Source: Nitrosomonas sp. Nm132 (GTDB lineage: Bacteria; Pseudomonadota; Gammaproteobacteria; Burkholderiales; Nitrosomonadaceae). Taken from it: 64,000 nucleotides of DNA. Shown piece by piece: positions 24,165 through 59,116 of this stretch; position 1 is the stretch's first letter, and the number at the start of each line of letters is the position of its first letter. The notes beneath the pieces are model-generated. The model ran no database searches. It was not told where the DNA came from and saw only the letters and a list, made by a program, of their open reading frames with translations. The DNA is taken from the NCBI RefSeq assembly GCF_900100485.1, contig NZ_FNDH01000010.1, forward strand, positions 1 through 64,000. The letters are read 5' to 3'. A program made the translations under genes and the position numbers.

Positions 24165-24174
24165 GACGAAATCC

Positions 24175-35000: not shown

Positions 35001-38000
35001 CAAATCCATTGCGTAACCGGTCAATCCCTTGCCTGCAATGTCCCCGAAACGCAGACCATACAGCTCATTACTGCGCAAAGCAGCATTAATCGGATAGTTT
35101 TCGAAGACAACGATGCTGTCAAACAGCGGCTGCCCAGGAAAACCGGCCCAGCGCTGAATATCGGCGAGCGCAGTATGTTCATAATCGCGTAACCTGGCAT
35201 TGGTCTCCTGCAACGAAACCAAATATTCACTCACCGTCAATTCGCTGCGGCGCGCAACAGGAATAGGAATCATATTGATAAACAACCCAAGAATCTCATC
35301 TGCTTGCGGTAAGCTGGGCGGACGGCCGGCAACCGTGGCACCGAAAATGACAGTCTGTTTTCCGGTATAACGTTGCAACAGCAGCGCCCAGGCTACCTGG
35401 ACAAAAGTATTCAAGGTCACGTGCGCTTGCTGGACAAACGCCTGCAAGCGACGCGTTTCGTCAGAACTCAGATGCGTATAAATCTGAGCAAAGTCTGACC
35501 GTTGCTCTTTTTTCACCCCCTTGCCGACTGATTCCGCTAACAGTGTCGGACCGTCAATGTGATCGAGTTCAACTTGCCAGAAATGCTGGGCTGCCTGAGC
35601 GGTTTGTTTCGCCAGCCATCGCACATAAACGCCATAATCCGGCCCTGGTTGCGCCAGGGTCTCACCGTTATAGCAGCGTAGCCAATCACTGATCAGCATG
35701 GAATCGCCCCAGCCATCGAGCAATATGTGATGCTTAGTCCATACCAGCTGATGGCGGTTCTCGCCTATCTGGATCAAGCTCAATCGAGCTAAGGGAGGAT
35801 TAAGAAAATCGAATTCACGCTTCAGCTCTTGATCGGCATAAGCAATGATGCGTTCTTCGAGACGATCCTTACCCCGCCAATCCAAATGGCTAACTGGCGC
35901 CTCGACTTGCTTGAAGACGATCTGTGAAGGACGCGCCAGACCTGCCCGCCATAAAAACCCCGTACGCAGCACCGGATGCCGGGCAACCATCGCCTGCCAG
36001 GCCTGCGTCAGCCGCGCGGCATCGAGACCCTCGACTTCGACGCTGATCTGATTCACATACAGTCCGGTGCCGGGCGCTTCTAGGGTATGAAATAACATCC
36101 CTTCCTGCGTCGGTGACAGCGGATAGATATCTTCGATCTCACTATTACCAAATGGCAGCGTAGCGATGATTCCAGCATCAAGATAGTCTTGCAGCTGGGC
36201 TTTCTTGAGTGATAACTCCTCGGTGACCGGCTCTGCCATGGCTTCTGCCGCCCTCGCGAGCGCAGCGATGGTTTGCCGTTCGAACAATTGCCGCGGTGTG
36301 ATCTTCCAACCTGCACGGCGTGCTTTGGTCACAATCTGCAAACTGAGAATGGAATCTCCGCCCACTTCAAAGAAGTTATCGTTACGCCCTACCTGATTGA
36401 TGCCCAGCACTTCCGCCCAGATCGCCGCCAACGCTTCCTCCACTTCGCCATGTGGTGCTTCATATTGGTCCGCGCTGACAAATTCCGGCTCGGGCAGCAG
36501 TTCACGGTCCACTTTGCCGTTCGCGTTCAGTGGCAAGCTCTCTAAAACGACCATCGCCGATGGCATCATGTAATCCGGCAAAGCTGTTCCTACCGACTCA
36601 CGCAACACAGTGGTATCCAGCGTACTGCCTGCGTGCAGCGAGATATAGGCCACCAGCCTCGCCCCACTGGGCCCTTCCTTGGCGATTACCACCGCTTCTC
36701 TCACTTCAGGTTGTAACAACAACTGCGCTTCAATTTCACCCAGCTCTATGCGGAAACCTCGTATCTTGACCTGATGATCCAGCCGCCCTAAATATTCTAT
36801 TTGCCCATCCGAGCGCCATCTTGCCAGATCGCCTGTACGGTAAAGCCGTCCACCCTTGTCATCAAAAGGATCTGCGATAAACCGTTCTGCAGTTAACTCC
36901 GGCCGGTTCAGATAGCCGCGTGCGAGCAGCTCTCCGCCAATGCAAAGCTCACCAGGAATTCCAGGCATAGCAAGCGCCAGATTAGCGTCAAGCAAATAAA
37001 TACGGCGCGCTGGCAGCGGCTTTCCGATCGTCACTTGTACTGATCCCGGACCACTATCCGGATAATTCCCGCCGCAATCAGCGACCGTGGCGGTGACAAT
37101 CGCTTCTGTCGGTCCATAGGTATTCAGCAGGGTAATCGCATTCATGCCGGCTTGCCGCCAAGCTTTGATGCCTTCAGGCGACATGGCTTCACCCCCTGCG
37201 TGCACTTGCCGCAACGCACCATAATCGCGCGGCCCCAACTTGGCAAAATCCTGCACGAGCAAAAACCAGTAGGCTGTTGTAAGATCGGCAACTGTTATCC
37301 GTTTATCCATCAGTTCACGGTAGAATGCTTCACTGTCCCATAGCATCGGGCCGCGTAAAACAATGGCCGCGCCTGCGCATAACGGAGGGAAAAGCTGTTC
37401 GACGAAGCCATCGAAGTTAATGGTGGAAAATTGCAGCATCCGGTCTGTGCTGCGTAGTTTAAAGAAATCAATGGCAATATAAGCATGCTCAACCAGCGCG
37501 TGGTGCGCAACCCCCACCCCTTTGGGTTTCCCGGTAGAACCGGAAGTGTAGATGATGTAGGCCAGATGCTCGCCGTGCAGGCTTACATCAGGATTGTTCT
37601 CCGGCCAGCCAACCCAATCCTGCGCATCCAATTCCAGAACATGGCATCCCTCAACGTGCGGAATCCGCGCCCGCAGCGGGCTTTGTGTCAGCAGCAATTC
37701 AATCGCACTGTCCGCCACCATGTGATTTAGCCGCTCCCGTGGATAGTCCGGGTCGAGCGGCACATAGGCTGCACCTGCCTTGAGCGTCGCCAGCAAGCCA
37801 ATTACCATATCGATCGAGCGCTCCACCGCAATCCCGACCCGGCTCTCTGGTTTGATTCCCAGCGCGATCAGCCGGTGCGCCAAGCGGTTTGCCTGCCGGT
37901 TCAGTTCCGCGTAACTGAGCTCCGTTTCGCCAAAAATGAGTGCCGTCGCATCAGGATGCGCAATCACTTGCCGTTCAATCAAGCGATGCACCGGTTCAGC

Positions 38001-41000
38001 ATTCGCGTAGCGCCGCTCATTGATACCCCATGCTTTAAGCTGATGCCATTCTGCTGCATTTAATAGCGCGATATCGCCCAGGCATTTGACTCCATCTCGG
38101 GTGATCTCGCGCAGCAATTGTTCAATGTGCACTGCGATACGATGGACGGTTGCTTCTGAGAAATACTTGCAGGCATAGCCATATTGCAAGGTAAGTCCAT
38201 TATTCTCTACCACCGATACGGTCATCGGATAATTGGTCGCTTCCCGGCCTTTGATGCCAGAGATGACGAGCCCGCCCGGCGTATGCTGTTGCAATGCTTC
38301 ATCGATGGGATAGTTTTCAAACACTAAAATACTATCGAACAGCCCCTGCCGGCTTTGCCCCGCCCAACGCTGGATTTCATACAATGGCGTGTATTCATGC
38401 TCGCGAGAAGCCAAATTCTGCATTTGTAAATCACGCAGCCATGCGCCGATGGCAAGTTCAGGCTTAAGTGCAATGCTCACTGGCAAAGTATTAATGAAAA
38501 GTCCGAGCATCTGATCCGATCCCGGCAAATCTGCCGGCCGGCCCGCGACAGTCACCCCAAAGGTAACTGTCTGCTGACCCGTATAATGGCCAAGCAGCAA
38601 AGCCCACGTAGCTTGTATTAAGGTATTGATCGTAACGTGTTCATGTTTGCAGAAATGGGCCAAATCACGGGTCAAGGTCCGATGGAGTGGATGAATAGAT
38701 TCTCCATAGCCTTCATTTGTTGCGGGCGCTGCAACCACATCGGCTAACCGGGTAGATTCAGTGATATGGCGTAGCCGCTCCTGCCAATACATTTCCGATG
38801 TTTTCTGATCGCGATCACTTAACCATGCAATGAAATCCCGGTAGCGAGTACGCGGTGATGGCCCTATCGCACCACCATACTGCCGCAGTACTTCACCCAG
38901 CAATTGCGAAGTGCTCCAGCCATCCAGCAGCAGATGATGGATCATCATAATGACGTGATATCGATCATCGGTGAGGCGCACCACGGCAATCCGGAGCAGC
39001 GGTGGTTCTTTCAGATTGATACCTGCCGTGTGCTCGGATAGCGCGAGCGTATCAAGATCCTGCTTCCGATGGGTTAAAGGATAAGCATCCTGATTACGCC
39101 AGTCGTACACGATGAAGGGTAATTCAGCCGTTCTGGCTACCCATTGCAAAGGCACTTTTCCTTCCTGCACGAAACCGGTGCGCAATATCTCATGACGATC
39201 GATCGCAGCCTGCCAGGCAGCCTTGAACCGCTCGACCGACAGATGCTCGATATCAGCGCTCAGTTGAGTGAGATACATGCCGCCATCCCTATCAAACACG
39301 CTATGGAACAGCATGCCAGTCTGCATCGGTGAGAGCGGGTAAAGATCCTCCAGTTGCCCAACGGGAATCGGCAAACTATCCAGTTCATCCTGAGTGATCT
39401 GAAGCAACGGAAAATCAGTAGGCGTCACCCCGCGAACACCCTTCCTGCAATGACCAATAACCGCTTTAAGTTCAGTCAGCAACGTAGCGATAAATGTTTC
39501 GATCGTTTCTTTGGCATAGCGAGCTTCACTGTAGCTGACTTCCAGACAGAGCTCCCCCTTGTAAATGTGGCTGTTGATTGAGAGATCATGCTGCTGCACA
39601 ACGCCTTGATCCATCAAATCACCTATTGGTTCATCGGCCAGTATCCAGGGGGTTTGTTCTTCGAAGCTGGTATCAAATTGCCCCAGATAATTGAACACCA
39701 CTTGCGCTTTGGGAAGACCATCGATCACCTTCCGTTGCGCCGCAGTGCCATAGTATTTAAATAAACCATAACCCAATCCTTTATTGGGTATCTGCCGCAG
39801 ATTCTCTTTAATATGCTTGATTCTTTGCGGCAAATCACCCGATGGATCGAGGATGACTGGAAACAGCGCAGTAAACCACCCGATCGTTCGCGACAAATCG
39901 ATATCCGAATAAAGATCTTCCCGTCCATGACCTTCCAGGTCTACCCGAATCTTCTGATGTCCGCTCCATTGACATAAGGCGCTACCCAATGCAGTAAGCA
40001 GCAAATCGTTAACTTGTGTGCGGTAAGCGGCGGGAGCGTCTTTGAGCAACGCCTGAGTCTGCGCCTGATCAAGCCTCGCCGTAATACGGGTACGATTAAA
40101 CACACTGTTGGAGCCTTCTGGAAAATCACAGGGAAGGGAAACAGGCACATTCATCTGGTTTTGCCAATAGGCAAACTCGGCTGCATGGCTATCAGGATAC
40201 TGTTGCAGTCGGTGAGTCCAGGCAGGGTAGCCGGTGATCACTTCGGGCAATCTGATGGCTTCATGGTTCTTCGCCTGGTGATAAGCGGTTTCAAGATCCT
40301 CAATCAAAATACGCCAGGAAACGCCATCAATCACCAAATGATGCACAACCAGCAACAAACGCTGGGATTGATCCGCCATCTCGACAAGCATGGCGCGTAT
40401 CAGCGATCCTTGCTGCAAATTCAAACTACGCTGCGCTTCATTGCATAGTGTCAATAACTGCTCAGCATCTGCCGCCTGCCGAACCCACAACACATCCTGC
40501 ATGCTCGATTTAATGGCAATTTGCTGCCATTGATCGTTCGTTTGCTTGCTATAACAGAAATGTAACGCGCTATGATGTTGCGCAACAACCTGCAGTGCCT
40601 GATCCAGCCATGCCGCATGTAAAGGTTGGCAGCTTTTCAGCAGTACCGCCTGATTCCAGTGATGCCGCATAGGAATTGCTTGGTTAAAAAAATCAAGCTG
40701 GATCGGCAGCATGGGAATAGGCGCTGTGATATCCGGCAAGTCATTTTGTTCATGAATAGTTTTAGCAGCTTCCTCCAGCGGCCTGGCAACACTTGCCAGC
40801 GCAGCAATGGTTTGCCGTTCGAACAATTGTCGCGGCGTAATCTTCCAGCCTGCACGGCGTGCTTTGGTCACAATCTGCAAACTAAGAATGGAATCTCCCC
40901 CTAGTTCGAAGAAATTATCCTGGCGGCCGACTTGGCTGATTGCCAGTACCTCTCTCCAGATTACTGTCAGCGCTTCTTCCACCTCACCCTGCGGCGCCTC

Positions 41001-44000
41001 ATATGGGCACTCGCTGATAAACTCCGGTTCAGGCAATAGTTTGCGATCGACTTTACCGTTTGCATTCAGCGGCAGACGCTCCAGTATGACGATCGCCGAA
41101 GGCACCATATAATCCGGCAAAGCTTTCCCTATCGATTCGCGCAATACGACAGTATCTACCGTGCTGCCCGCATGCAGCGAGACATAAGCCACCAGCCTGG
41201 CGCCACTGGGCGCTTCCTTGGCGGCCACCACGGCTTCTCTCACTTCAGGGTGTGACAACAGCTGCGCTTCAATTTCCCCAAGCTCTATGCGGAAACCCCG
41301 TATCTTGACTTGATGATCCAATCGTCCCAGGTAGTCAATCTGCCCATCGGCGCGCCATCTCGCCAGATCGCCAGTCCGGTACAGCCGTCCGCCCTTGTCA
41401 TCAAAGGGATCCGCGATAAATCGCTCGGCGGTCAAACCAGGTTTGTTTAGATAGCCGCGAGCTAATCCTACTCCCCCTAGATAAAGCTCCCCAGCAACTC
41501 CCAGTGGAACCAGATTAAGTTCTGAATCAAGAACATAAGCAACGCGATCTCCGACAGGATAACCGATGGGCATATAAGCTGACTCGAATCGAGTACCCGG
41601 ATAGGCTTTCGAAATTAAAGGTGTGATGACCGTCTCGGTAGGACCATAGCCGTTAATGATGCGCGGAGGTTGCAGTGTTTCCTGAATAAAATCAAAGCTG
41701 GCCCGGCTCATTGCTTCGCCACCGACTGTGTAGGAACGAATCGGTAAACTCCGGCCTGCACTGCCCGTCAATTCAGCCAGTTGCTGCAGATAACCCGGTG
41801 TGAAACAGGCGATGGTGATGCGATGTTGGATAATCTCGGAGACGGTACGGTCAACAGACCAGAAATCGTTGTCCCGCGGCATTAATGCCGCGCCAAAGGC
41901 CAGCGGCACCAGCCAGCGTTCATGCGCCCCGTCGAAATTGATCGAGGCAAACTGCAGTTCCCGGTCTGCAGGCGTCATACCGTAAAGCTTACCGATTGCT
42001 TGGACATGCATTGACAACGGTTCATGAGTGACCGCTACCCCCTTGGGTTTTCCGGTGGAACCGGAAGTATAGATGAGGTAAGCGAGATGCTCGCCATGCA
42101 GACTCACCTGCGGATTGTTCTGCGGCCAATCTGTCAGATCGAGTGTGTCCAGTTCCACAACCTGGCACCCTTCGGCATGCGGGATCCGCTCTCTGATCGC
42201 GCTTTGCGTCAACAGCAACGCAATGGCGCTGTCCCTCACCATGTAATGCAGACGCTCCCGCGGGTACGCCGGGTCGAGCGGCACATATGCACCGCCCGCC
42301 TTGAGGATCGCCAGCAGACCGACGATCATCTCGATCGAGCGTTCCGCTGCAATCCCCACTCGGGTTTCCGGTGTAACCCCCAATGCAATCAACCGGTGCG
42401 CCAGCCGGTTGGCCCGGCGGTTTAATTCGGCATAGCTGAGTTCCGTATCGCCAAAGATCAGTGCAATCGCTTCCGGTCGCTCGGCTACCTGCCGCTCAAT
42501 CAGGCGGTGCACCGGCTCGGTATCGGCATAGCGCCGTTGGTTCACCCCCCATGCCTTAAGCTGCGCCAGCTCCGCTTCACTCAGCAGAGCAATGTCGCCC
42601 AGCCTGCATTCCGGATGCCCGGCCAGCTGTTCAAGGAGGTGCAGATAATGCGCTCCAAGGCGCTGGATGGTGGCCGGCTCGAATAACTCGCCAGCATAGG
42701 TGAAGCGGGCGCTAAACTGCCCATTTGGCTTTTCTACGGTATCCAGCGTCAATTCAAACTGGGCTGTCTGGCCGCTCAGTTCATATTCCTCTACCTTAAG
42801 CCCTGGCAATTGCTCCAAGGCGCGACGATCCAGGCGCAGGTGATTGAACATGACCTGAAACAGCGGCTGTTGCGTTAAACTGCGCTCCGGCTGCAAAGCT
42901 TCCACCAGTTGCTCAAACGGCAGATCCTGGTGCATCTGGGCAGCCAGCGCGGCTTCACGGGTCTGTTCGAGAATGAGGCTGAGCGGAGTGCGTCCGTCGA
43001 TGCGGTTACGCAATACCTGGGTATTCACGAAGAAACCTACCATATGTTCGATTTCCACCCGGTGGCGATTGGCGATCGGCACGCCGATACGGATATCGTT
43101 CTGGCCGGTGTAGCGTTGCAGCAACGCCTGGAAACCCGCCAGCAATGCCATGAAAAGGGTCGCCCCCTGGCGCTGCGCCTGCTGCTGCAGGCGGGCAATC
43201 AGTAGCGCCGGTAACGCAAAGTCATGCCGCGCGGCCCGATAATGGGCGCTGGCCAGGCGCGGGTGATCGGTGGGCAGTTGCAGCACCGGCTGATTCTCCC
43301 CGAGCTGCTTGCGCCAGTAACTCAGCTGGCGCTCTTTTTCGCCCGCTTCCAGCCAGTTGCGCTGCCACATGGCATAATCCGCGTACTGAATCGTGAGCGC
43401 CGGCAGTGAAGGTTCCCGGCCCTGCAGCCGCGCCCGGTACTGGGCCGCGAATTCTTCAATGAGTATGTGGTTCGACCAGGCATCCGAGATGATGTGGTGC
43501 ATCACTACCACCAACAGGTGCTCTTCCGGTGTGATGCGGATCAGCGCCAGCCTCAGCAGCGGGTCACGGGTGAGATCGAACGCGGCCGCATTGATCCGCT
43601 TGGCGGCTTCCTGCGCGTGCCTCGCGCGCTGCTCCGCTGGCCAATCGCACAGATCGATCAGGGGGATTTCCAGCTTGCGTTCTGCTTCTACCAGCTGCTC
43701 TGGCAATCCTTGCGCATTCACCCGGAATACCGTGCGCAACGCTTCATGCCTGGCGACCAACGCCTGAAAACTCGCCTGCAATACCTCAATATCCAGCTTC
43801 CCCACCAGACGCAAGGCGCCGCTCAAATGGTACGCAGTACTCAGCGGCTCCAGTTGCCATAAAAACCATTGACGTTGCTGCGCGTAGGAAAGTACGCTTC
43901 GGTTCTGCGGTGGCTGTTGAATAATCGGGAGAAGAGAGAAGTCGATCCCTCGTTGTTTCAATCCACTGAGGAATGCTTTTTGTTTCTCACGTGAGAGCGC

Positions 44001-44033
44001 AGAAAATCGCTCGGCAATATCCTGTTTATTCAA
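32091..44033 (-). CDS. Trimodular NRPS with thioesterase (C-A-PCP-E-C-A-PCP-C-A-PCP-TE)
   Basis: A 3980-aa synthetase. Approximate landmark residues: C1 HHIISDAWS 181; A TSGSTGKPKG 660; PCP GGDSI 1046; epimerisation domain HHLVIDGVSW 1232; C2 HHLLLDGWS 1699; A 2163; PCP GGDSI 2560; C3 HHILLDGWG 2769; A 3239; PCP GGDSL 3630; thioesterase GWSLGG 3768 with His in DHFDIV 3942. Specificity residues read by eye: first A DGECTGGITK, second DGEDHGTVTK, third DGEAVGGVTK. The first and third are alike; the Glu at the third position suits a basic side chain such as (N-acyl-)N-hydroxyornithine. C2, after the E domain, is expected to take a D-residue donor. C1 has DA instead of DG in its active-site motif. 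The start is TTG at 44033, 6 bp after the previous stop. This protein ends the chain and releases the product. Confidence 0.95.
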   Translation of the reverse strand: MNKQDIAERFSALSREKQKAFLSGLKQRGIDFSLLPIIQQPPQNRSVLSYAQQRQWFLWQLEPLSTAYHLSGALRLVGKLDIEVLQASFQALVARHEALRTVFRVNAQGLPEQLVEAERKLEIPLIDLCDWPAEQRARHAQEAAKRINAAAFDLTRDPLLRLALIRITPEEHLLVVVMHHIISDAWSNHILIEEFAAQYRARLQGREPSLPALTIQYADYAMWQRNWLEAGEKERQLSYWRKQLGENQPVLQLPTDHPRLASAHYRAARHDFALPALLIARLQQQAQRQGATLFMALLAGFQALLQRYTGQNDIRIGVPIANRHRVEIEHMVGFFVNTQVLRNRIDGRTPLSLILEQTREAALAAQMHQDLPFEQLVEALQPERSLTQQPLFQVMFNHLRLDRRALEQLPGLKVEEYELSGQTAQFELTLDTVEKPNGQFSARFTYAGELFEPATIQRLGAHYLHLLEQLAGHPECRLGDIALLSEAELAQLKAWGVNQRRYADTEPVHRLIERQVAERPEAIALIFGDTELSYAELNRRANRLAHRLIALGVTPETRVGIAAERSIEMIVGLLAILKAGGAYVPLDPAYPRERLHYMVRDSAIALLLTQSAIRERIPHAEGCQVVELDTLDLTDWPQNNPQVSLHGEHLAYLIYTSGSTGKPKGVAVTHEPLSMHVQAIGKLYGMTPADRELQFASINFDGAHERWLVPLAFGAALMPRDNDFWSVDRTVSEIIQHRITIACFTPGYLQQLAELTGSAGRSLPIRSYTVGGEAMSRASFDFIQETLQPPRIINGYGPTETVITPLISKAYPGTRFESAYMPIGYPVGDRVAYVLDSELNLVPLGVAGELYLGGVGLARGYLNKPGLTAERFIADPFDDKGGRLYRTGDLARWRADGQIDYLGRLDHQVKIRGFRIELGEIEAQLLSHPEVREAVVAAKEAPSGARLVAYVSLHAGSTVDTVVLRESIGKALPDYMVPSAIVILERLPLNANGKVDRKLLPEPEFISECPYEAPQGEVEEALTVIWREVLAISQVGRQDNFFELGGDSILSLQIVTKARRAGWKITPRQLFERQTIAALASVARPLEEAAKTIHEQNDLPDITAPIPMLPIQLDFFNQAIPMRHHWNQAVLLKSCQPLHAAWLDQALQVVAQHHSALHFCYSKQTNDQWQQIAIKSSMQDVLWVRQAADAEQLLTLCNEAQRSLNLQQGSLIRAMLVEMADQSQRLLLVVHHLVIDGVSWRILIEDLETAYHQAKNHEAIRLPEVITGYPAWTHRLQQYPDSHAAEFAYWQNQMNVPVSLPCDFPEGSNSVFNRTRITARLDQAQTQALLKDAPAAYRTQVNDLLLTALGSALCQWSGHQKIRVDLEGHGREDLYSDIDLSRTIGWFTALFPVILDPSGDLPQRIKHIKENLRQIPNKGLGYGLFKYYGTAAQRKVIDGLPKAQVVFNYLGQFDTSFEEQTPWILADEPIGDLMDQGVVQQHDLSINSHIYKGELCLEVSYSEARYAKETIETFIATLLTELKAVIGHCRKGVRGVTPTDFPLLQITQDELDSLPIPVGQLEDLYPLSPMQTGMLFHSVFDRDGGMYLTQLSADIEHLSVERFKAAWQAAIDRHEILRTGFVQEGKVPLQWVARTAELPFIVYDWRNQDAYPLTHRKQDLDTLALSEHTAGINLKEPPLLRIAVVRLTDDRYHVIMMIHHLLLDGWSTSQLLGEVLRQYGGAIGPSPRTRYRDFIAWLSDRDQKTSEMYWQERLRHITESTRLADVVAAPATNEGYGESIHPLHRTLTRDLAHFCKHEHVTINTLIQATWALLLGHYTGQQTVTFGVTVAGRPADLPGSDQMLGLFINTLPVSIALKPELAIGAWLRDLQMQNLASREHEYTPLYEIQRWAGQSRQGLFDSILVFENYPIDEALQQHTPGGLVISGIKGREATNYPMTVSVVENNGLTLQYGYACKYFSEATVHRIAVHIEQLLREITRDGVKCLGDIALLNAAEWHQLKAWGINERRYANAEPVHRLIERQVIAHPDATALIFGETELSYAELNRQANRLAHRLIALGIKPESRVGIAVERSIDMVIGLLATLKAGAAYVPLDPDYPRERLNHMVADSAIELLLTQSPLRARIPHVEGCHVLELDAQDWVGWPENNPDVSLHGEHLAYIIYTSGSTGKPKGVGVAHHALVEHAYIAIDFFKLRSTDRMLQFSTINFDGFVEQLFPPLCAGAAIVLRGPMLWDSEAFYRELMDKRITVADLTTAYWFLLVQDFAKLGPRDYGALRQVHAGGEAMSPEGIKAWRQAGMNAITLLNTYGPTEAIVTATVADCGGNYPDSGPGSVQVTIGKPLPARRIYLLDANLALAMPGIPGELCIGGELLARGYLNRPELTAERFIADPFDDKGGRLYRTGDLARWRSDGQIEYLGRLDHQVKIRGFRIELGEIEAQLLLQPEVREAVVIAKEGPSGARLVAYISLHAGSTLDTTVLRESVGTALPDYMMPSAMVVLESLPLNANGKVDRELLPEPEFVSADQYEAPHGEVEEALAAIWAEVLGINQVGRNDNFFEVGGDSILSLQIVTKARRAGWKITPRQLFERQTIAALARAAEAMAEPVTEELSLKKAQLQDYLDAGIIATLPFGNSEIEDIYPLSPTQEGMLFHTLEAPGTGLYVNQISVEVEGLDAARLTQAWQAMVARHPVLRTGFLWRAGLARPSQIVFKQVEAPVSHLDWRGKDRLEERIIAYADQELKREFDFLNPPLARLSLIQIGENRHQLVWTKHHILLDGWGDSMLISDWLRCYNGETLAQPGPDYGVYVRWLAKQTAQAAQHFWQVELDHIDGPTLLAESVGKGVKKEQRSDFAQIYTHLSSDETRRLQAFVQQAHVTLNTFVQVAWALLLQRYTGKQTVIFGATVAGRPPSLPQADEILGLFINMIPIPVARRSELTVSEYLVSLQETNARLRDYEHTALADIQRWAGFPGQPLFDSIVVFENYPINAALRSNELYGLRFGDIAGKGLTGYAMDLQVTVGDTLEIEYAYGCNDFTDEFVLELRSHMECLMREMMTYPQRVVGELGGVGKERLAQLFLLRGDANLSDTLSRAYQPVHHLIERNAAHQPDAIALLMGEQEMAYAELNRRANQLAHHLIRLGAGPEICIGVAMERSLDIIVTLLAILKSGAAYVPLDVDYPAGRLSFMMKDSALSLLITQSKVLAKLEFNSAVPVLVMDTLELEAEPTSNPAIAVHEHNLAYVIYTSGSTGLPKGVAVTHGPLAMHCQATAHIYGMSPRSCELLFMSFSFDGAHERWLTALTIGAGLAVRDQELWTAEQTYDALHHYGITNAAFPPAYLGQVAEWAVPRNDPPPVELYVFGGEAMPKASYDLVRKTLRPRTLINGYGPTETVVTPLIWKTDASNSFECAYAPIGRPVGERVVYVLDVDMQLVPMGIVGELYIGGYGLARGYLGRAGLTAERFVADPFDEHGGRLYRTGDLVRWMEDGNIEYVGRADHQVKIRGFRIELGEIEARIREVTGIAEAAVTVHQGAIGAQLVAYIVPVAPVTGQSAQNLIAQLKLTLAKRLPEYMLPAHFMTLTALPRLPSGKLDRKALPEPDCLPGERYQAPSTPEARLIAEIWQEVLGVEQVGETDNFFALGGDSLSSLKVMARMRNLTDVKLDFKLRDLIQRPTIASLLGLDKRTIASASGLLALNQPSGNGERKPLFCIHAGLGTVFDYQPLARQLQGVRTVYGLPCRMLADPAHQDISLRQMAEDYCSMIRSVQPEGPYHLLGWSLGGTLAVMMADLLEANRQTVAFLGLIDPYVPGTAPLQRDDWREDFLDFISVAIPGGEPDDALKAALSSQSAGVVSKQAIADLLERMLAIKQAESQTSGQTAIQGYADMGVEELAHIFLVARHLKTLSLRVGALRPLRSQTTCWWAATREVGDRLTLEQQIKPAEIRSIEIDVDHFDIVRAGSLLLGIQSLLTTVLTSSTDGKENVCVKENL
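42037..43874 (-). repeat. Long near-identical repeat, copy in the trimodular NRPS gene
   Basis: About 1.84 kb covering the C1 domain and the first half of the first A domain is, as far as I can compare by eye, identical to 45364-47201 (offset 3327 bp). The protein sequence over about 610 residues is identical. Similarity breaks at the A-domain motif TSGSTGKPKGV and resumes around 41040-41480. Confidence 0.9.
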
Positions 44034-44039
44034 TTCTAC

Positions 44040-47000
44040 TCAGTTCCCTAATAAATCCAGTAATTCCGACATTTCGTGTAATGCGGTATTTTCTTTAGAT
44101 CGCAACGAATATTTATCCTGGATAACAGACGCCATATCCCTCAATACAGGATTCTCAAAATATAAATGTAGCGGCAACGAAATAGACAGGCGCTGCCGCA
44201 ATTTCTGCTGAACCTGCAGCACTGCCAGGGAGTGCCCTCCTGACATAAAGAAGTGGTCATTGCGTCCGACTTGGCTGATGCCCAGCACTTCCACCCAGAC
44301 TGCCGCCAACGTCTCTTCCACTTCGCCTTGCGGTGCTTCATAAGCATCCGCGCCGGCAAATTCCGGCTCAGGCAACAGCTTACGATCGACTTTGCCGTTT
44401 GCATTCAGCGGCAGACGCTCCAGCATGACGATCGCCGAAGGCACCATATAATCCGGCAAAGCTTTCCCTATCGATTCGCGCAATACGGCAGTATCTACCG
44501 TGCTGCCCGCATGCAGCGAGACATAAGCCACCAGCCTGGCGCCACTGGGCGCTTCCTTAGCGGCCACCACAGCTTCTCTCACTTCAGGGTGTGACAACAG
44601 CTGCGCTTCAATTTCCCCAAGCTCTATGCGGAAACCCCGTATCTTGACCTGATAATCGAGCCGCCCCAAGTATTCAATCTGCCCATCGGCGCGCCATCTC
44701 GCCAGATCGCCAGTCCGGTACAGCCGTCCGCCCTCGTCAGCAAAAGGATCCGCGATAAACCGCTCGGCGGTTAAACCAGGTTTGTTTAGATAACCACGCG
44801 CAAGCCCCATGCCACCAAGATACAATTCTCCCACCACACCATACGGCACCGGCTTCATTTCCGCATCGAGGATATAAAGCTGGGTCGCAGCAATAGGGTT
44901 ACCAAGCGAGATGGCTCGCTGATCGATCCTGCCGATAACCGACCAAATAGTCGTTTCTGTGGGACCATACATATTCCACAACTCGACATTCAATGCGCGC
45001 AACTGATCAACCAAGTCTATGGGCAACGCTTCCCCACCGCATAGACATTTAAGAGGAGGTTGATTCTCTTCTTCTGGTAAAGCCTGCCATCCACTTGCCA
45101 GCAACACCCGCCATCCAGCTGGAGTAGACTGGAGAATACTTACCTGGTAGGTCTGGAGTAATTGCGCGAGTATCGATCCATCATGACTTGCTGCCTGTGG
45201 CGCCAGTACCAGCCGCGCGCCGGCACTCAGAGGCAGATAAATCTCCAGGCCAGCAATATCGAATGAAAGCGCAGTGACGGATACCAAGGTATCCTTGACT
45301 GTCATACCCGGCAACTCAAGCATACTCATTACGAAGTGACTCAATGCATGATGGCGCACCATCACCCCCTTGGGTTTTCCGGTGGAACCGGAAGTATAGA
45401 TGAGGTAAGCGAGATGCTCGCCATGCAGACTCACCTGCGGATTGTTCTGCGGCCAATCTGTCAGATCGAGTGTGTCCAGTTCCACAACCTGGCACCCTTC
45501 GGCATGCGGGATCCGCTCTCTGATCGCGCTTTGCGTCAACAGCAACGCAATGGCGCTGTCCCTCACCATGTAATGCAGACGCTCCCGCGGGTACGCCGGG
45601 TCGAGCGGCACATATGCACCGCCCGCCTTGAGGATCGCCAGCAGACCGACGATCATCTCGATCGAGCGTTCCGCTGCAATCCCCACTCGGGTTTCCGGTG
45701 TAACCCCCAATGCAATCAACCGGTGCGCCAGCCGGTTGGCCCGGCGGTTTAATTCGGCATAGCTGAGTTCCGTATCGCCAAAGATCAGTGCAATCGCTTC
45801 CGGTCGCTCGGCTACCTGCCGCTCAATCAGGCGGTGCACCGGCTCGGTATCGGCATAGCGCCGTTGGTTCACCCCCCATGCCTTAAGCTGCGCCAGCTCC
45901 GCTTCACTCAGCAGAGCAATGTCGCCCAGCCTGCATTCCGGATGCCCGGCCAGCTGTTCAAGGAGGTGCAGATAATGCGCTCCAAGGCGCTGGATGGTGG
46001 CCGGCTCGAATAACTCGCCAGCATAGGTGAAGCGGGCGCTAAACTGCCCATTTGGCTTTTCTACGGTATCCAGCGTCAATTCAAACTGGGCTGTCTGGCC
46101 GCTCAGTTCATATTCCTCTACCTTAAGCCCTGGCAATTGCTCCAAGGCGCGACGATCCAGGCGCAGGTGATTGAACATGACCTGAAACAGCGGCTGTTGC
46201 GTTAAACTGCGCTCCGGCTGCAAAGCTTCCACCAGTTGCTCAAACGGCAGATCCTGGTGCATCTGGGCAGCCAGCGCGGCTTCACGGGTCTGTTCGAGAA
46301 TGAGGCTGAGCGGAGTGCGTCCGTCGATGCGGTTACGCAATACCTGGGTATTCACGAAGAAACCTACCATATGTTCGATTTCCACCCGGTGGCGATTGGC
46401 GATCGGCACGCCGATACGGATATCGTTCTGGCCGGTGTAGCGTTGCAGCAACGCCTGGAAACCCGCCAGCAATGCCATGAAAAGGGTCGCCCCCTGGCGC
46501 TGCGCCTGCTGCTGCAGGCGGGCAATCAGTAGCGCCGGTAACGCAAAGTCATGCCGCGCGGCCCGATAATGGGCGCTGGCCAGGCGCGGGTGATCGGTGG
46601 GCAGTTGCAGCACCGGCTGATTCTCCCCGAGCTGCTTGCGCCAGTAACTCAGCTGGCGCTCTTTTTCGCCCGCTTCCAGCCAGTTGCGCTGCCACATGGC
46701 ATAATCCGCGTACTGAATCGTGAGCGCCGGCAGTGAAGGTTCCCGGCCCTGCAGCCGCGCCCGGTACTGGGCCGCGAATTCTTCAATGAGTATGTGGTTC
46801 GACCAGGCATCCGAGATGATGTGGTGCATCACTACCACCAACAGGTGCTCTTCCGGTGTGATGCGGATCAGCGCCAGCCTCAGCAGCGGGTCACGGGTGA
46901 GATCGAACGCGGCCGCATTGATCCGCTTGGCGGCTTCCTGCGCGTGCCTCGCGCGCTGCTCCGCTGGCCAATCGCACAGATCGATCAGGGGGATTTCCAG

Positions 47001-47369
47001 CTTGCGTTCTGCTTCTACCAGCTGCTCTGGCAATCCTTGCGCATTCACCCGGAATACCGTGCGCAACGCTTCATGCCTGGCGACCAACGCCTGAAAACTC
47101 GCCTGCAATACCTCAATATCCAGCTTCCCCACCAGACGCAAGGCGCCGCTCAAATGGTACGCAGTACTCAGCGGCTCCAGTTGCCATAAAAACCATTGAC
47201 GCTGCTGCGCGTAGGACAATAATGCGGGTTCCCGGGAATCTCGGGGTGAAATAACCGCTTCAGGTCGTACCAGATTACTCGCAGCAGCTGAGAGTCGCCG
47301 AGTAAGCTTACTGCGTTGCTCAGGCGTCAGGCGCGCCCGTCTTTTTGCAAGGTCGTCACTATTGGACAT
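44040..47369 (-). CDS. Single-module NRPS (C-A-PCP), glycine-type A domain
   Basis: An 1109-aa protein: C domain (HHIISDAWS near residue 184), A domain (TSGSTGKPKG near 661) and a carrier with GGHSL near 1044. The specificity residues read DILQLGMIWK, matching the known glycine code (DILQLGLIWK form) with one change, so glycine is likely. It accepts the beta-hydroxyacyl chain from the PKS and passes the product to the trimodular protein. Its C domain and the first half of its A domain are the second copy of the 1.84-kb repeat. The A-domain flank after the core is also nearly identical to the downstream module. It starts with ATG 75 bp after the PKS stop. Confidence 0.95.
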   Translation of the reverse strand: MSNSDDLAKRRARLTPEQRSKLTRRLSAAASNLVRPEAVISPRDSREPALLSYAQQRQWFLWQLEPLSTAYHLSGALRLVGKLDIEVLQASFQALVARHEALRTVFRVNAQGLPEQLVEAERKLEIPLIDLCDWPAEQRARHAQEAAKRINAAAFDLTRDPLLRLALIRITPEEHLLVVVMHHIISDAWSNHILIEEFAAQYRARLQGREPSLPALTIQYADYAMWQRNWLEAGEKERQLSYWRKQLGENQPVLQLPTDHPRLASAHYRAARHDFALPALLIARLQQQAQRQGATLFMALLAGFQALLQRYTGQNDIRIGVPIANRHRVEIEHMVGFFVNTQVLRNRIDGRTPLSLILEQTREAALAAQMHQDLPFEQLVEALQPERSLTQQPLFQVMFNHLRLDRRALEQLPGLKVEEYELSGQTAQFELTLDTVEKPNGQFSARFTYAGELFEPATIQRLGAHYLHLLEQLAGHPECRLGDIALLSEAELAQLKAWGVNQRRYADTEPVHRLIERQVAERPEAIALIFGDTELSYAELNRRANRLAHRLIALGVTPETRVGIAAERSIEMIVGLLAILKAGGAYVPLDPAYPRERLHYMVRDSAIALLLTQSAIRERIPHAEGCQVVELDTLDLTDWPQNNPQVSLHGEHLAYLIYTSGSTGKPKGVMVRHHALSHFVMSMLELPGMTVKDTLVSVTALSFDIAGLEIYLPLSAGARLVLAPQAASHDGSILAQLLQTYQVSILQSTPAGWRVLLASGWQALPEEENQPPLKCLCGGEALPIDLVDQLRALNVELWNMYGPTETTIWSVIGRIDQRAISLGNPIAATQLYILDAEMKPVPYGVVGELYLGGMGLARGYLNKPGLTAERFIADPFADEGGRLYRTGDLARWRADGQIEYLGRLDYQVKIRGFRIELGEIEAQLLSHPEVREAVVAAKEAPSGARLVAYVSLHAGSTVDTAVLRESIGKALPDYMVPSAIVMLERLPLNANGKVDRKLLPEPEFAGADAYEAPQGEVEETLAAVWVEVLGISQVGRNDHFFMSGGHSLAVLQVQQKLRQRLSISLPLHLYFENPVLRDMASVIQDKYSLRSKENTALHEMSELLDLLGN
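45364..47201 (-). repeat. Long near-identical repeat, copy in the single-module NRPS gene
   Basis: Partner of 42037-43874. At the far end the identity stops a few codons into the C domain (differences begin at 47202, GCTGCTGCGC versus GTTGCTGCGC just inside). Short unique N-terminal linkers differ between the two genes, so the repeat is internal to both. Confidence 0.9.
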
Positions 47370-47444: not shown

Positions 47445-50400
47445 TTAGGAACACTCGGCTTCATCCAGTAGCTTTGTCTCAACTAATGCCGCCAGACCGG
47501 CGATGGTGGGTGATCTGAAGAAGTCTACCGGATGCAAGTCGACAGCAAAACTTGCCCGCACCCTGGACAGCAGCTGTATGCCCAGCAAGGAATCTCCTCC
47601 CAATTCAAATAAATTGTCATCCATGCCGATGCTCTCCATTCCCAAGAGACTCTGCCAAACCTCTGCGATATGCTTCTCCAATTCACTTTCGGGAGACCTG
47701 AACAGGGTCTGTAATGCAGGTCTTGGGAATCTCCCTGTCCTGACTGCGGGAGCGAATGCAAAGGGCTGGGTAACCAGCTCTTCCTGGGTCTGGCTGAGCC
47801 GCGTGTGCAGGTCAAGCGTAGAAACGATTACCTGCGCCCTTCTTTGACTGCTCACGATGCGTTCGAAAACCGCTGCCCCTTCTTTAGGAGCGATTCCCAC
47901 GCCATCCGGCATCGCCATATTTGCGGCCATACCGACTTCACGCCAGCTATCCCAATTAATCGAAATGACAGGAAATGGAGATGCACGATAGGCGGCGTGC
48001 GCGACGGCATCAAGATACGCATTGGCAGCACAATAATCGATTTTGCTGAGACCGCCTGCAATCGTCGCGAGCGAAGAGCATAAAATCATGAAATCCAGCG
48101 GCTTATCCTTAAATACAGCTCGCAGGGCACGCATTCCCTGCACTTTAGGGGCGAATATCCGGGTCATCGTTTCTTCCGTTTTCGCTGAAATCAAACCGCT
48201 GCTGACTTCACCTGCAGCGTGAATCACGCCGTCAATCGCGCCATAATGGCGGCGTGCCCGGGTCACAGCTGCCTTCAAGTCAGCCTGATTGGCCACATCC
48301 GCACTCACTACCAGCACATTGGCGCCCAGTGCTTCCAGATGCATGATTTTTTCAATTTTGTGCCGGGTGGCGTCTTCCTGACTGCTGGTTGACAGCACTT
48401 CTGGCCAGCATTCCCGTGACGGAAGAGGAGAACGCCCTAATAACACCAGTTTTGCCTGCCGGGTCTGGGCGAGATATTCGGCCAGCGTCAAGCCGATGCC
48501 GCCTAATCCACCGGTGATCAGATAAACCCCCCCTTGTTTAAGAGAAGTGCTGACAGGTTTAGCTAACTGGATAGGCTCAAAGGTTTGAACCCAGCGATGC
48601 GGGCCCCGATAGGCGACAATGGATGCAAGGGAATCGGTTTGGATCTCGGCAAGAATCTGTTTGATCAGCCGTGATCTGGCGCTACTCTCTGTGGGCTGGA
48701 ATTCGACGTCAATGATACGGCAACCGAGATAGGAATATTCCTGAGGAATCACTCTGCATGGTCCCAGTAGAAGCGCTTTCTCGGGATGCAGTTGCTCATT
48801 GCCGGTCACATCCGTCAACTGACTGGTGATGACCGTGATGGCTATCTTTTCCCCGGCAGGAATAAGCGCTTTAGTCCACTCCAACGCCTGGGCGAGATAG
48901 AACAGACTAAAGAAATTCCTCAGCTGGCTTTCACTTTGAGCGCGGTTTTGGTTAACCGTGGTCATGCTCCAGAAATGGAGGACATGGCCGATGGTTTTGC
49001 CATCATCGCGAATGCTGCGCAACAGATGATCATAATCAAGCCGCTCTCCAGGGCGAATGGTATAGTGATTTTTATCCTGCCGTCGAAACCGGGTACCCGC
49101 GACGATCACGATAGGCTCGATGCCATGCATGAGCAAATGGGCAGTGAGTTCTATCCCGAGAGGGTGCTTATCCCTGAAAATCAGCAGAGAGCCGATTTGC
49201 TTGGTCAAGATGTCATTAAGCGCCGTACCCTCGTCGCGCCGCCATGATGGCGCATAAAACCAGCTATCCAGCGGGCAAGCTTCTGATCGGACCTCCCTGT
49301 TGCGCTGCTGTATGCCGGCGTTATTATTGGGCACTTCAAGGTTTTGCCCTGCCGGCTGCACCCAGTAGGGCTGATGCTCGAATGGATACGTCGGTAATGA
49401 AACGCGGTGGCGGTGCTCATTTGCATAAAAATTCCGCCAGTTGATTGTCAACCCGCTCAACCAAAGCTTGCTGAGGCTAAGCGATAAATGTCTCTGAGCC
49501 AGATGGCCCTTGCTGGGATGCGGTAAAGATGAGAGCAGGAGCTGCTCAGGTTTTGCCTGAGGATGCCGTTGCGCCAGCGTGATCAGGGTTTCCCCTGGCC
49601 CCACTTCCAGAAGAATTTGCGCCGGGTTACTCAGCAGTTTATGTAACCCATCGCTGAAACGCACAGTTCCCCGCAGGTGCCGCCCCCAGTAACTCGCGTC
49701 GGTGGCCTCGCACGGTGTAATCCAGCTACCACTCAGATTGGAGATAAACGGAATTTTTGGTTGACGCAACTCAATTTGAGCAATCTTCTCAACAAAACCA
49801 GCGAGCATGGGCTCCACCATGGCAGAATGAAAGGCATGGGAAACATGCAGCCGCCGACTTACTATTCCCTTATTCGTGAGACTTTGCTCGACAGCTTCAA
49901 TGACTGCAGCCGGGCCGGATAATACACAAAGCTCAGGTCCGTTGATGGCTGCCAAATCGCAATTTGCAATCAGATAAGGCGTGAGCTCCGTTTCGGATAG
50001 CATCACAGCCAACATGGCGCCCGTTTCCATCTGCTGGAGCAAACGCCCGCGCATCGCGACCAGGCGCAACGCATCCTCCAGGGAGAAGACTTCTGCCAGG
50101 CAGGCAGCCACGTATTCGCCAACGCTATGGCCAATCATTGCTGTGGGTTGGATACCCCATGACTTCCACAGTTGCGCCAAGGCATATTCAATCACGAAAA
50201 GCGCGGGTTGCGTCACCTCCGTTTGCGCCAGCCGTGCTGCTGCTGCAACTTTGTCAGCTTCATCTGAACCAGGGTACAAGACGGTCAATAACTCAAAATC
50301 AAGATAGGGTTCTAACAGCTTGAAACAACGATCACATTCCTGGCGAAAAACGGGTTCACTTTGATACAGATCCCGCGCCATATCAACATACTGAGCCCCT

Positions 50401-52037
50401 TGTCCTGGGAAAAGAAATGCGACCGGGCGATTTTCGACTATCACTTGCTGCGTTAGAAACCGCTCCGTGTCCCGGTTTTTTAACAGACCCACTGCATCAT
50501 CATGGTCGCGGCATAACGCGATCGTCCGGTGAGCAAAGCCTTTTCTTCCGATCTGGAGGGTATAGGCGACATCGGCCAATGGTACCTCAGGATGCGCCAT
50601 CAGATGCTCCCTCAATCGAGTCAGCATCACCTCAAGCGCATGATGACTGCGCGCTGACAAGGTGAGCATTTGCCAATCGCGTGAAGGGCCGGAGGGATGA
50701 ATTGGCGGCGCTTCTTCGAGGACCACGTGAACATTGGTTCCACCAATCCCAAATGAACTGACCCCGGCACGCCGTGGCGTCGGGCCACTCGGCCAAACCT
50801 TACTGATCGTATTGACGTAAAAAGGGCTCGATGCAAAATCGATCTGCGGATTGGGTTGCTCAAAATTTAAACTCGGCGGCAGCATCCGGTGTTTCAATGA
50901 GAGTGCCGTCTTAATCAGACCCGCTACCCCAGCAGCCGCATCGAGATGACCGACGTTGGTCTTGACTGAGCCAATACCACAAAATCCCCGTCGCTCGGTA
51001 CTTTCCCGGAAAGCCTGCGTCAAAGCCGTAACTTCGATCGGATCACCTAGCGTCGTACCGGTCCCATGCGCTTCAATATAGCTGATGGTATCGGCAGATA
51101 TGCCTGCAATGGCCTGAGCAGCCAGGATGACTTCCGCCTGCCCTTCTATGCTGGGCGCGGTGTACCCGGCCTTGGCTGAACCATCATTATTGATAGCTGA
51201 ACCTTTAATCACGGCATGAATGGTATCGCCATCGGCCAGCGCATCGGCCAGCCGCTTTAAGACCACAATGCCCACGCCACTTCCTATCACCGTGCCAGCA
51301 GCCTTGGCATCAAAAGCACGGCAATGACCATCAGGAGAAAGAATGGCACCGGGCTGATAGTGGTATCCTCCCTCATGCAACAGGTTGATCCAGGCGCCCC
51401 CGGCAAGCGCCATATCGGCCTCATGATTGAGCAGGCCGCGGCAAGCCACATGGGTCGCTGCCAGCGAGGTGGAACAGGCCGTCTGAACGGTAATGCCGGG
51501 ACCGCGCAGATTAAGCTTATACGCGACAGTCGTCGTCATAGAATCCTTATTGTTGCCGTTCATTAGCCCCTGCAGGGAGGAAATATCCTGCCTGTCCGAC
51601 ATGCGTCCACTGGACAGCAGATTTAGCAGTAGATAGGTATCCACACCGCAACCCGCGTATACCCCGATGAGATCAGGATAGATTGATGCATCATAACCGG
51701 CATCTTCCAGGGCCTGCCAGGCGACTTCAAGGAAAAGCCGATGCTGCGGATCCGTCTCCGCCGCCTCCCGCGGGGTATAGCCAAAAAAAGCCGCGTCGAA
51801 GTGATCGACATTTTCCAGGTGAGCACCTGCTTTGATGTAGAGCGGATCATTCAATACGTCCGCAGGGACGCCGCGCGCCAGCAATTCCTCATCGGTAAAG
51901 AAAGTAATCGACTCCACTCCATCCCGGATATTGCGCCAGAAAGCTCCAATATCATTCGCACCGGGAAAGCGGCACGCCATACCAATGATGGCAATATCAA
52001 TGTCTGCGCGTTCTGGCGATTCTTCTATATTGTTCAT
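47445..52037 (-). CDS. Type I polyketide synthase module (KS-AT-KR-ACP)
   Basis: A 1530-aa module. KS active-site Cys is in TACSTSLAATH (about 189), with EAHGTGT and GSVKTNVGHLDAAAG later. The AT has GHSVGEY (about 638) and HAFHSAMVEPM; the HAFH form points to malonyl-CoA. The KR has GGLGGIG (about 1177) and the catalytic Tyr/Asn in DYCAANAYLD. The carrier Ser is in LGGDSLLG (about 1482). No dehydratase or enoyl reductase is seen, so the unit should stay a beta-hydroxy group. The start overlaps the upstream stop as TGATG (52035-52039), indicating coupled translation. It extends the acyl-aminoacyl chain by two carbons between the first and second amino acids. Confidence 0.95.
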   Translation of the reverse strand: MNNIEESPERADIDIAIIGMACRFPGANDIGAFWRNIRDGVESITFFTDEELLARGVPADVLNDPLYIKAGAHLENVDHFDAAFFGYTPREAAETDPQHRLFLEVAWQALEDAGYDASIYPDLIGVYAGCGVDTYLLLNLLSSGRMSDRQDISSLQGLMNGNNKDSMTTTVAYKLNLRGPGITVQTACSTSLAATHVACRGLLNHEADMALAGGAWINLLHEGGYHYQPGAILSPDGHCRAFDAKAAGTVIGSGVGIVVLKRLADALADGDTIHAVIKGSAINNDGSAKAGYTAPSIEGQAEVILAAQAIAGISADTISYIEAHGTGTTLGDPIEVTALTQAFRESTERRGFCGIGSVKTNVGHLDAAAGVAGLIKTALSLKHRMLPPSLNFEQPNPQIDFASSPFYVNTISKVWPSGPTPRRAGVSSFGIGGTNVHVVLEEAPPIHPSGPSRDWQMLTLSARSHHALEVMLTRLREHLMAHPEVPLADVAYTLQIGRKGFAHRTIALCRDHDDAVGLLKNRDTERFLTQQVIVENRPVAFLFPGQGAQYVDMARDLYQSEPVFRQECDRCFKLLEPYLDFELLTVLYPGSDEADKVAAAARLAQTEVTQPALFVIEYALAQLWKSWGIQPTAMIGHSVGEYVAACLAEVFSLEDALRLVAMRGRLLQQMETGAMLAVMLSETELTPYLIANCDLAAINGPELCVLSGPAAVIEAVEQSLTNKGIVSRRLHVSHAFHSAMVEPMLAGFVEKIAQIELRQPKIPFISNLSGSWITPCEATDASYWGRHLRGTVRFSDGLHKLLSNPAQILLEVGPGETLITLAQRHPQAKPEQLLLSSLPHPSKGHLAQRHLSLSLSKLWLSGLTINWRNFYANEHRHRVSLPTYPFEHQPYWVQPAGQNLEVPNNNAGIQQRNREVRSEACPLDSWFYAPSWRRDEGTALNDILTKQIGSLLIFRDKHPLGIELTAHLLMHGIEPIVIVAGTRFRRQDKNHYTIRPGERLDYDHLLRSIRDDGKTIGHVLHFWSMTTVNQNRAQSESQLRNFFSLFYLAQALEWTKALIPAGEKIAITVITSQLTDVTGNEQLHPEKALLLGPCRVIPQEYSYLGCRIIDVEFQPTESSARSRLIKQILAEIQTDSLASIVAYRGPHRWVQTFEPIQLAKPVSTSLKQGGVYLITGGLGGIGLTLAEYLAQTRQAKLVLLGRSPLPSRECWPEVLSTSSQEDATRHKIEKIMHLEALGANVLVVSADVANQADLKAAVTRARRHYGAIDGVIHAAGEVSSGLISAKTEETMTRIFAPKVQGMRALRAVFKDKPLDFMILCSSLATIAGGLSKIDYCAANAYLDAVAHAAYRASPFPVISINWDSWREVGMAANMAMPDGVGIAPKEGAAVFERIVSSQRRAQVIVSTLDLHTRLSQTQEELVTQPFAFAPAVRTGRFPRPALQTLFRSPESELEKHIAEVWQSLLGMESIGMDDNLFELGGDSLLGIQLLSRVRASFAVDLHPVDFFRSPTIAGLAALVETKLLDEAECS

Positions 52038-57425: not shown

Positions 57426-58127
57426 CTAATCAGCATAGGAAAGACTGGCGCTGCATTCGTGCACTCGCGATTTACCCTGATGGGTCAACGCCAATGCCGC
57501 CGCGTAGTGCAGAGGTACGCCAATCGACCAGGCGTCGACTCCGGCCCATTCGCCTTGATCATGGATAATGCAGTAGCTGCCGTCATGATTTGGCCGTACG
57601 GTAATGGCTTGCAGGTATTCAGCAATCCCCCATCCCAGTGCTTTCAGTACCGATTCCTTCACTACCCAGAGCTCGATAAAATTCTGGCTTGACCAGATTC
57701 CCTCTGCATGTTCTACCGAAGAAAGCACATGCGCATCCAAATAGGCGACATCCCGTTGACGCTGCTCAATATCGATCCCAATCTCCCCCTGGGTGGAAAG
57801 TGCAATCAACGCAAAACTCCCTGCATGGGAAACATTGAACTCGATGCCTGGATGCGCTTGTAAATGAGGTTTACCAAAGGCGCCTGTTACAAAGTGCAGC
57901 TCATTTGGCGGCAACACCACCCGTTCCGCCAGCAAACGGCGCAGCGCCGCCCGCGTCGCTATAGCACGCACCCGATCCTGCTGGCGATGAAAGCGTTGCG
58001 CACGAGCCTGCTCGTCAGCGCTCAGCATCGCCCAGTCATCAGCAAGCCAGGTCGAATCGAAATCGAACTCGAGCAACCAGACTTCGATGCCAGCAGGAAT
58101 AGTCTCAGGCAGTGGCAAACGCTTCAT
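57426..58127 (-). CDS. Sfp-type 4'-phosphopantetheinyl transferase
   Basis: A 233-aa protein of the Sfp/Gsp type, which transfers phosphopantetheine from CoA onto the Ser of the carrier domains and so activates the megasynthases. The substrate and magnesium-binding motifs are present: GKPHLQAHPGIEFNVSHAG, GIDIEQRQRD and WVVKESVLKALGWG. The length is normal for the class (about 220-250). Its start overlaps the thioesterase stop by 23 bp and it ends 85 bp before the FAAL gene. Confidence 0.95.
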   Translation of the reverse strand: MKRLPLPETIPAGIEVWLLEFDFDSTWLADDWAMLSADEQARAQRFHRQQDRVRAIATRAALRRLLAERVVLPPNELHFVTGAFGKPHLQAHPGIEFNVSHAGSFALIALSTQGEIGIDIEQRQRDVAYLDAHVLSSVEHAEGIWSSQNFIELWVVKESVLKALGWGIAEYLQAITVRPNHDGSYCIIHDQGEWAGVDAWSIGVPLHYAAALALTHQGKSRVHECSASLSYAD

Positions 58128-58842: not shown

Positions 58843-58854
58843 TAATACGCTGCA

Positions 58855-59070: not shown

Positions 59071-59116
59071 AGCACATACCTCAGATTTACGAATAAATAG
59101 TTTTTTAATACTTATT

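Follow-up and report, generated by a model that had tools for sequence, protein, structure and literature searches.

Two neighbouring modules of a nonribosomal peptide synthetase (NRPS) cluster in Nitrosomonas sp. Nm132 share a nearly identical condensation (C) domain and first half of the adenylation (A) domain, followed by dissimilar A-domain cores. This locus raises the question of which part of such a pair has moved, the core or its flanks. The modules, here called M3 and M4, lie on the minus strand of a 64,000-nucleotide stretch (contig NZ_FNDH01000010.1, positions 1 to 64,000; hereafter the window) from the 3.2-Mb genome of an ammonia-oxidising bacterium, a draft in 135 contigs. By protein comparison, the closest named relatives are Nitrosomonas communis Nm44 and Nitrosomonas sp. 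Nm34. The cluster runs from a loading region with module M1 through a polyketide synthase (PKS) module and the single-module M3 gene to a gene encoding M4, M5, M6 and a thioesterase. We consider it highly probable that M3 and M4 are old, separate modules whose segment from the C domain to motif A3 has recurrently undergone gene conversion, with both cores retained.

In a blastn comparison, the two modules aligned over 1,853 bp in a single match that contained one mismatch (Table 1). The mismatch (43875 versus 47202) falls at base 15 counted from one edge, leaving 1,838 bp exactly identical (42037-43874 versus 45364-47201), in agreement with the first-pass annotation, which had noted about 1.84 kb of identity over the C domain and first A half of the neighbouring genes. 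The identical stretch spans the C-domain start to the A3 motif, and its length rules out chance similarity. Searched against its own genome, the tract gave two copies at 100% identity, with the next places at 75% and 64%. The breaks were sharp at the motifs where the annotation had placed them: in 15-codon bins around and after TSGSTGKPKG, identity dropped from 100% to 76%, 42% and 29%, and it climbed again at GYLNKPG.

By segment, M3 and M4 were 99.8% identical in the C domain, 100% in the N-terminal part of the A domain (A-N), 40% in the core, 95.0% in the A8-A10 tail, 57% in the carrier (T) domain and 37% in the N-terminal linker. Synonymous distance (dS) was 0.007 in C, 0 in A-N and 2.1 in T, with core and linker saturated at synonymous sites. 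The tail contained 21 differences (dS 0.145). The two tails have been diverging far longer than the copies of the 1.84-kb tract (dS about 0.15 versus under 0.01), which probably requires at least two copying events. The tails described earlier as nearly identical are thus similar, but not equally recent, and the core is not the sole difference, as both linker and carrier also diverge strongly. The substrate codes were recovered as first read, with the glycine code DILQLGMIWK in M3 and DGECTGGITK in M4; these signatures were extracted by anchoring on motifs, with residue positions following GrsA numbering.

One of the origins first proposed was that a C-A-T module had recently been duplicated as a whole and one of the two cores then replaced. 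This would account for the likeness of both the C-A3 block and the tail, and true module duplication occurs in the family, since two Nitrosovibrio genomes (G134 and G138) carry tandem M4 modules with cores 96.9% identical. In Nm132, however, the linker, core and T domain are not duplicated, at the identities given above. M3 T domains are old and position-specific, the M3-type T is shared with other species, and the two-gene layout is common to two genera. Nitrosomonas and Nitrosospira-type genomes share the order M1, PKS, M3, M4, M5, M6, indicating that the M3 and M4 modules predate these species. Recent module duplication was therefore rejected, and we regard it as very improbable.

For comparison, 125 genomes of the family were searched; the M4 core was matched in 64 and the M3 core in 74, many of the matches being other A domains. 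Clusters or cluster parts from 26 genomes were used in the module alignments, with stretches from 17 more. Eighteen of the module-tree genomes were picked for carrying an M4-type core, and further ones by likeness to M3. The C trees omit M4 of G007 and G069, which have unlike C types, and the M4b of G134 and G138. The motif scan for modules misses unusual motifs (e.g., M5 of G070), and the N-masked G121 and G122 were unreadable. Named genomes are G018 (Nm34), G070 (Nm44), G010 (NMNS01), G134 (Nitrosovibrio Nv6), G138 (Nitrosovibrio Nv4) and G135 (Nitrosospira Nsp14).

Flank identity between M3 and M4 recurred among the relatives. Within-genome identity over C and A-N was 99.5-100% in Nm132, G031, G070, G111, G114, G116, G129 and G131. 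Lower or uneven values (C/A-N) were obtained for G029 (99.8/96.5%), G115 (98.9/98.8%), G120 (100/96.6%) and G123 (92.5/97.9%), and G018 was partially homogenised (94.6/81.6%). Between genomes, the corresponding C domain was only 61-75% identical to the Nm132 copy in the set compared. M3 and M4 C domains were sisters in 12 of the 17 genomes holding both, each pair being starred or identical in the tree, and a single clade of all M3 C domains was rejected by the approximately unbiased (AU) test (p = 4.5e-96, five sets of identical rows left free). On the C tree, each sister pair was homogenised after its genome had split from the next sampled one. The two modules were each other's nearest relatives in 11 of 19 genomes for A-N, in six for the tail (G007, G069, G120, G129, G131 and Nm132) and in two for T (G007 and G069). 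Within-genome paralogues closer than orthologues, paralogues that predate the species and sharp tract ends together match the pattern of concerted evolution.

The tract ends were also shared. Residue 51 marks the start of the C domain and residue 669 the end of A3. With blocks scored by identity against mismatch, a near-identical block spanned residues 42-52 to 667-671 in 11 of 17 genomes, ending no more than 2 residues from the end of A3. These 11 include G123, whose block is older, with 106 mismatches. The block of G029 ended at residue 658, 11 residues before the end of A3, and the tract of G018 was internal (986 bp). No block was found in G010 and G135, and only short ones (under 300 bp) in G134 and G138. 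The single-contig assembly G129 combined an exact block up to A3 with a second block of 648 bp (5 mismatches) from the core end into T, and is the cleanest core island in the set. Gene conversion, the other origin first suggested for the pair, is supported by this recurrence and by the tract ends at A3.

The earlier worry that assembly had created the repeat, by overwriting one diverged copy with the other, can be weighed on the same genomes. Besides the fragmented state of the Nm132 draft, 9 of 24 contig ends examined in other drafts lay in or at the edge of the repeat (G011, G027, G032, G073, G077, G080, G085, G107 and G132), indicating that the repeat is hard to assemble. Nevertheless, a block with matching or almost matching ends was present in G029, G115, G116 and G129, each in one contig, and in G120, in four contigs, and both Nm132 copies are flanked by unique sequence within one contig. 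An artefact of this kind is extremely improbable.

Other rearranged states were found at the locus. G096 has no separate M3 gene between the PKS and M4 genes, and an M3-type N-terminus heads its M4 gene, the outcome expected from recombination or deletion between the two C domains. In G007 and G069, M3 and M4 are fused in one gene of about 5,500 aa; the T domain of M3 is identical to that of M4 in the same genome, and tail plus T are 99.8-100% identical. The M4 C domain of G069, with the stretch before it, is 100% identical to that of M5, so that copying there apparently took in the entire stretch from one core to the next.

Two further observations concern neighbouring modules. In some Nitrosospira-type genomes, homogenisation of A-N extends to the M4/M5 pair (G120, 96.3%; G123, 97.9%; G129, 95.9%; G135, 97.6%). 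G123 additionally carries a single-module NRPS gene with an ornithine-like (Orn-like) core upstream of M3.

Cores and carriers followed a different ancestry from the flanks. All 25 M4 cores fell into one clade (100/100), a result that is partly circular because 18 genomes were chosen for this core and the M4 label was set by the core motif. Their signatures were DGECTGGITK in 21 rows and DGECEAGITK in two, with two incomplete. For the T domain, 19 of 21 M3 copies formed one clade (100/100), the exceptions being G007 and G069. DILQLGMIWK is a glycine signature, and DGECTGGITK and DGEDHGTVTK are among the ornithine-activating signatures given in PMC12283262. Among the 21 M3 cores, seven were glycine-like DILQLGMIWK (one with V, two with unread positions), seven DGEDHGTVTK, one DADD and six of the type DVW...LIDK. 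The latter we take to be serine-like (Ser-like).

Across the family, the M3 core switches between core types, which points to real core exchange and changes the predicted residue. Among near relatives of Nm132, the M3 core is glycine-type (Gly) in G107, G070 and G018, Orn-like in G077 and in G011, the nearest relative by AccC, and Ser-like in G069. The M3 core is Orn-like and the M5 core Ser-like in G120 and G131, and the reverse holds in G029, G069, G114 and G123; in G122, G124 and G133, a Gly-type core occupies the module directly before M6. Exchange between M3 and M4 found no support, as motif typing identified an M4-type core in none of the 21 single-module M3 genes, a count free of the circularity noted for the M4 cores. 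Of the core swap initially suggested, the part that finds support is the change of M3 among Gly, Ser-like and Orn-like types. The flanks around these varied M3 cores are not orthologous, because copying between M4 and M3 overwrites them. Fast flank copying and slower core exchange thus overlap in space. Among the matches listed from 399 genomes of the order, those to the Gly core reached 48-58% identity, and one M4-type core reached 77% (G467).

If cores are exchanged at this locus, the identical flanks of Nm132 could also reflect a recent foreign core inserted between identical modules, either Gly into M3 or the M4-type into M4. The varied M3 cores of near relatives favour this, as do the different best relatives of core and flanks, a difference the first-pass annotation had named as a test of its reading. 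The divergence levels point instead to the flank as the replaced part. AccC placed Nm132 within the N. communis group, that is, G070 and its kin by AccC (97/95), as sister to G011 (96/93). The best relatives of the M3 Gly core were the M3 cores of G070, G018 and G107 (80-81% aa), with dS to G107, G070 and G018 of 0.76, 0.78 and 0.96, compared with 0.74, 0.96 and 0.97 for AccC and 0.59, 0.71 and 0.77 for DnaX.

The C domain was far more distant from G070 and G018, with about 0.71-0.72 differences per synonymous site (pS) and dS above 2. In a protein tree rooted with Thauera, Variovorax, Massilia, Janthinobacterium and Aquabacterium sequences, the Nm132 C domains lay outside the clade of all other sampled Nitrosomonas C domains (26 rows, 99/99), and their grouping with the N. 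communis group was rejected (AU test, p = 3.9e-5 without G107 and 3.7e-74 with it). With the Gly core at housekeeping-level divergence and the C domain not, the flank is probably the newcomer, and the core roughly follows the genome. That the last event in Nm132 brought in a foreign core is less likely, and a recent insertion of this kind on the whole improbable, although the support for the core placement is moderate.

The M4 core grouped with Nitrosospira-type M4 cores (89/98), and the nearest relatives of the C domain by path were on the same side. M4 was thus probably the donor and M3 the recipient of the C-A3 copy. A grouping of the C domain with Nitrosospira was weakened: an unrooted DNA tree placed the Nm132 C domain between the two genera, and the rooted protein tree located it only outside other Nitrosomonas.

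Several points weigh against recurrent conversion around a resident core. Conversion is not universal, the C domains of M3 and M4 being only 70-83% identical, like A-N, in G010, G134, G135 and G138. The M4-core clade is subject to the circularity stated above, and at least one cluster, that of G118, is shorter by one module and lacks an M4-type core. The exact identity in Nm132, read from a draft assembly, could be partly assembly-made. The Gly-core clade of Nm132, G073, G107, G070 and G018 had a support of only 87/90; uniting Nm132 with G070, G018 and G107 without G073 was disfavoured (AU test, p = 0.039), and a position of the Nm132 core outside the other Nitrosomonas Gly cores was not rejected (p = 0.106). 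Finally, the loading region with M1 (a comparison resting on G018), the PKS and M5 also diverge from G018 more than housekeeping genes do. With much of the rest of the cluster too divergent, the whole is a mosaic, and the core of M3 is better described as probably resident.

As a separate observation on the cluster, pS to G018 and G070 was mostly about 0.5-0.6 at the M6-thioesterase end (32091-36000) and about 0.7 in the rest, which likewise marks the cluster as a mosaic.

Under recurrent conversion, M3 and M4 would be old modules of a single siderophore-type assembly line, each with its own line of descent, and their C domains and first A halves would act as long direct repeats about 3.3 kb apart. 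Homologous recombination, presumably as gene conversion, would repeatedly overwrite one copy with the other and halt where homology ends, upstream at unrelated N-terminal linkers and downstream at dissimilar cores just past A3. The A8-A10 tail would form a second, shorter tract that is converted less often. Too little similarity for recombination, together with selection for the substrate, may keep cores and carriers distinct. Over longer periods, and independently, the core of M3 would be replaced by other core types. The last event in Nm132 would then be a C-A3 conversion, probably from M4 to M3. A bolder and rather unlikely proposal is that the pair is a standing core-exchange locus, in which conversion keeps the arms matched so that any core cassette of the family can enter M3, with M4 fixed. 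If so, arm homogenisation and core diversification would be one coupled process generating siderophore variants.

The features of the window are collected in Table 1. The epimerisation (E) domain after M4 is putative, as the fourth Condensation-family match directly precedes another C domain. The acyl-AMP-ligase-like identity of the loading region is presumed from a motif in its translation.

Table 1. Features of the window around modules M3 and M4.
Feature	Position	Strand	Remarks
M3 gene	44040..47369	-	Single-module NRPS, C-A-T, 1109 aa; Pfam Condensation, AMP-binding, AMP-binding_C, PP-binding
M4-M5-M6 gene	32091..44033	-	C-A-T-E (E putative), C-A-T, C-A-T-TE, 3980 aa; Pfam 4 Condensation, 3 AMP-binding, 3 PP-binding, Thioesterase
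M4 module	about 40400-44033	-	First module of the 3980-aa gene
M3 copy of near-identical tract, C and N-terminal A part to A3 motif	45364..47216	-	1,853 bp, differing from 42037-43889 at 1 position; M3 residues 52 to 669
M4 copy of near-identical tract, C and N-terminal A part	42037..43889	-	Match to 45364-47216
M3 A-domain core	44796..45365	-	Glycine-like DILQLGMIWK; motif-anchored signature
M4 A-domain core	41457..42038	-	DGECTGGITK; motif-anchored signature; Orn-like by PMC12283262
M3 A-domain tail, A8 to A10	44379..44795	-	95% identical to M4 tail
M4 A-domain tail, A8 to A10	41040..41456	-	Segment alignment
M3 carrier (T) domain and C-terminus	44040..44378	-	Unconverted; T 57% to M4
PKS module	47445..52037	-	KS-AT-KR-ACP; same cluster
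Loading region (presumably acyl-AMP-ligase-like), then C-A-T module M1	52037..57340	-	From translation; C domain 53933-55273; M1 core
L-ornithine/L-lysine N-monooxygenase	22854..24323	-	PF13434, E 7e-124; strongest match in genome, runner-up E 2.6e-11
GNAT acyltransferase, candidate N-hydroxyornithine acylase	24175..25281	-	PF13523, E 2.5e-58
ABC transporter	25580-27250		Near NRPS
Phosphopantetheinyl transferase, stand-alone thioesterase, sigma-70-family factor (ECF-like by size)	57426..59818	-	Beside cluster

The gene content hints at the product. The PF13434 monooxygenase and PF13523 acyltransferase genes (22854-25281) lie about 7-9 kb from the NRPS end and, together with the Orn-like signatures in M4 and M5, suggest an acylated hydroxamate siderophore. 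Acyl loading, NRPS with PKS and an ornithine hydroxylase make up the logic of lipopeptide siderophore pathways, which the cluster would share by its gene content. Acylated betaproteobacterial siderophores of this kind include cupriachelin and taiwachelin (PMC10484230). Adjoining the siderophore-type genes are a tyrosinase-domain protein with PPC repeats (27699-29186) and a small Kazal-type inhibitor protein (31181-31660). Siderophore synthesis genes are mentioned for the N. communis Nm2 genome (PMC4714114). A study of activated sludge reports that its Nitrosomonas genomes had no NRPS clusters (PMC9765116), indicating that the cluster is not universal in the genus.

Both components of this pattern have precedents. 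A-core subdomain recombination in NRPS genes was described by Baunach et al. 2021 (PMC8097286), with breakpoints inside the A domain that flank the A core and leave the C-A linker and the A-sub/T interface intact; T_E-E-DCL blocks are exchanged there together with A-sub, as in G007 and G069 here. In that work the core moves, whereas in the present case the C-A3 flank is copied between two modules of one genome and the core probably stays. Concerted evolution of NRPS and PKS domains was described by Medema et al. 2014 (PMC4256081), in which internal recombination makes C and A domains branch by cluster while diverged functional parts are protected. It concerns whole domains there, while here, in 11 of 17 genomes, homogenisation halts at A3, partway through the A domain. 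In microcystin synthetases, adenylation and condensation domains of the McyB1 and McyC modules likewise recombine (PMC3640908); that recombination is tied to a changed activated amino acid, while in Nm132 it spares the substrate-setting core. A masking effect of gene conversion has also been described (PMC9205934). Among the records listed from the open-licence literature, none was devoted to the Nitrosomonas cluster or its conversion. What is new is the coincidence of these known processes at one locus in a series of species, with the flank as the probable recent mover.

Module pairs that differ in the core and are identical in the flanks are easily misread as recent core swaps. Comparison with relatives indicates that the pattern described here arose from flank copying around a probably resident core, and single-genome comparisons can therefore misidentify the moving part. 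The relatives form an unusually clear series of M3/M4 conversion states, and one locus offers converted, partly converted, unconverted, fused, duplicated and deleted examples. Junctions that persist in nature may guide the choice of fusion points in NRPS engineering. For the ammonia oxidisers themselves, the changing third residue of a probable siderophore represents a testable case of chemical diversification.

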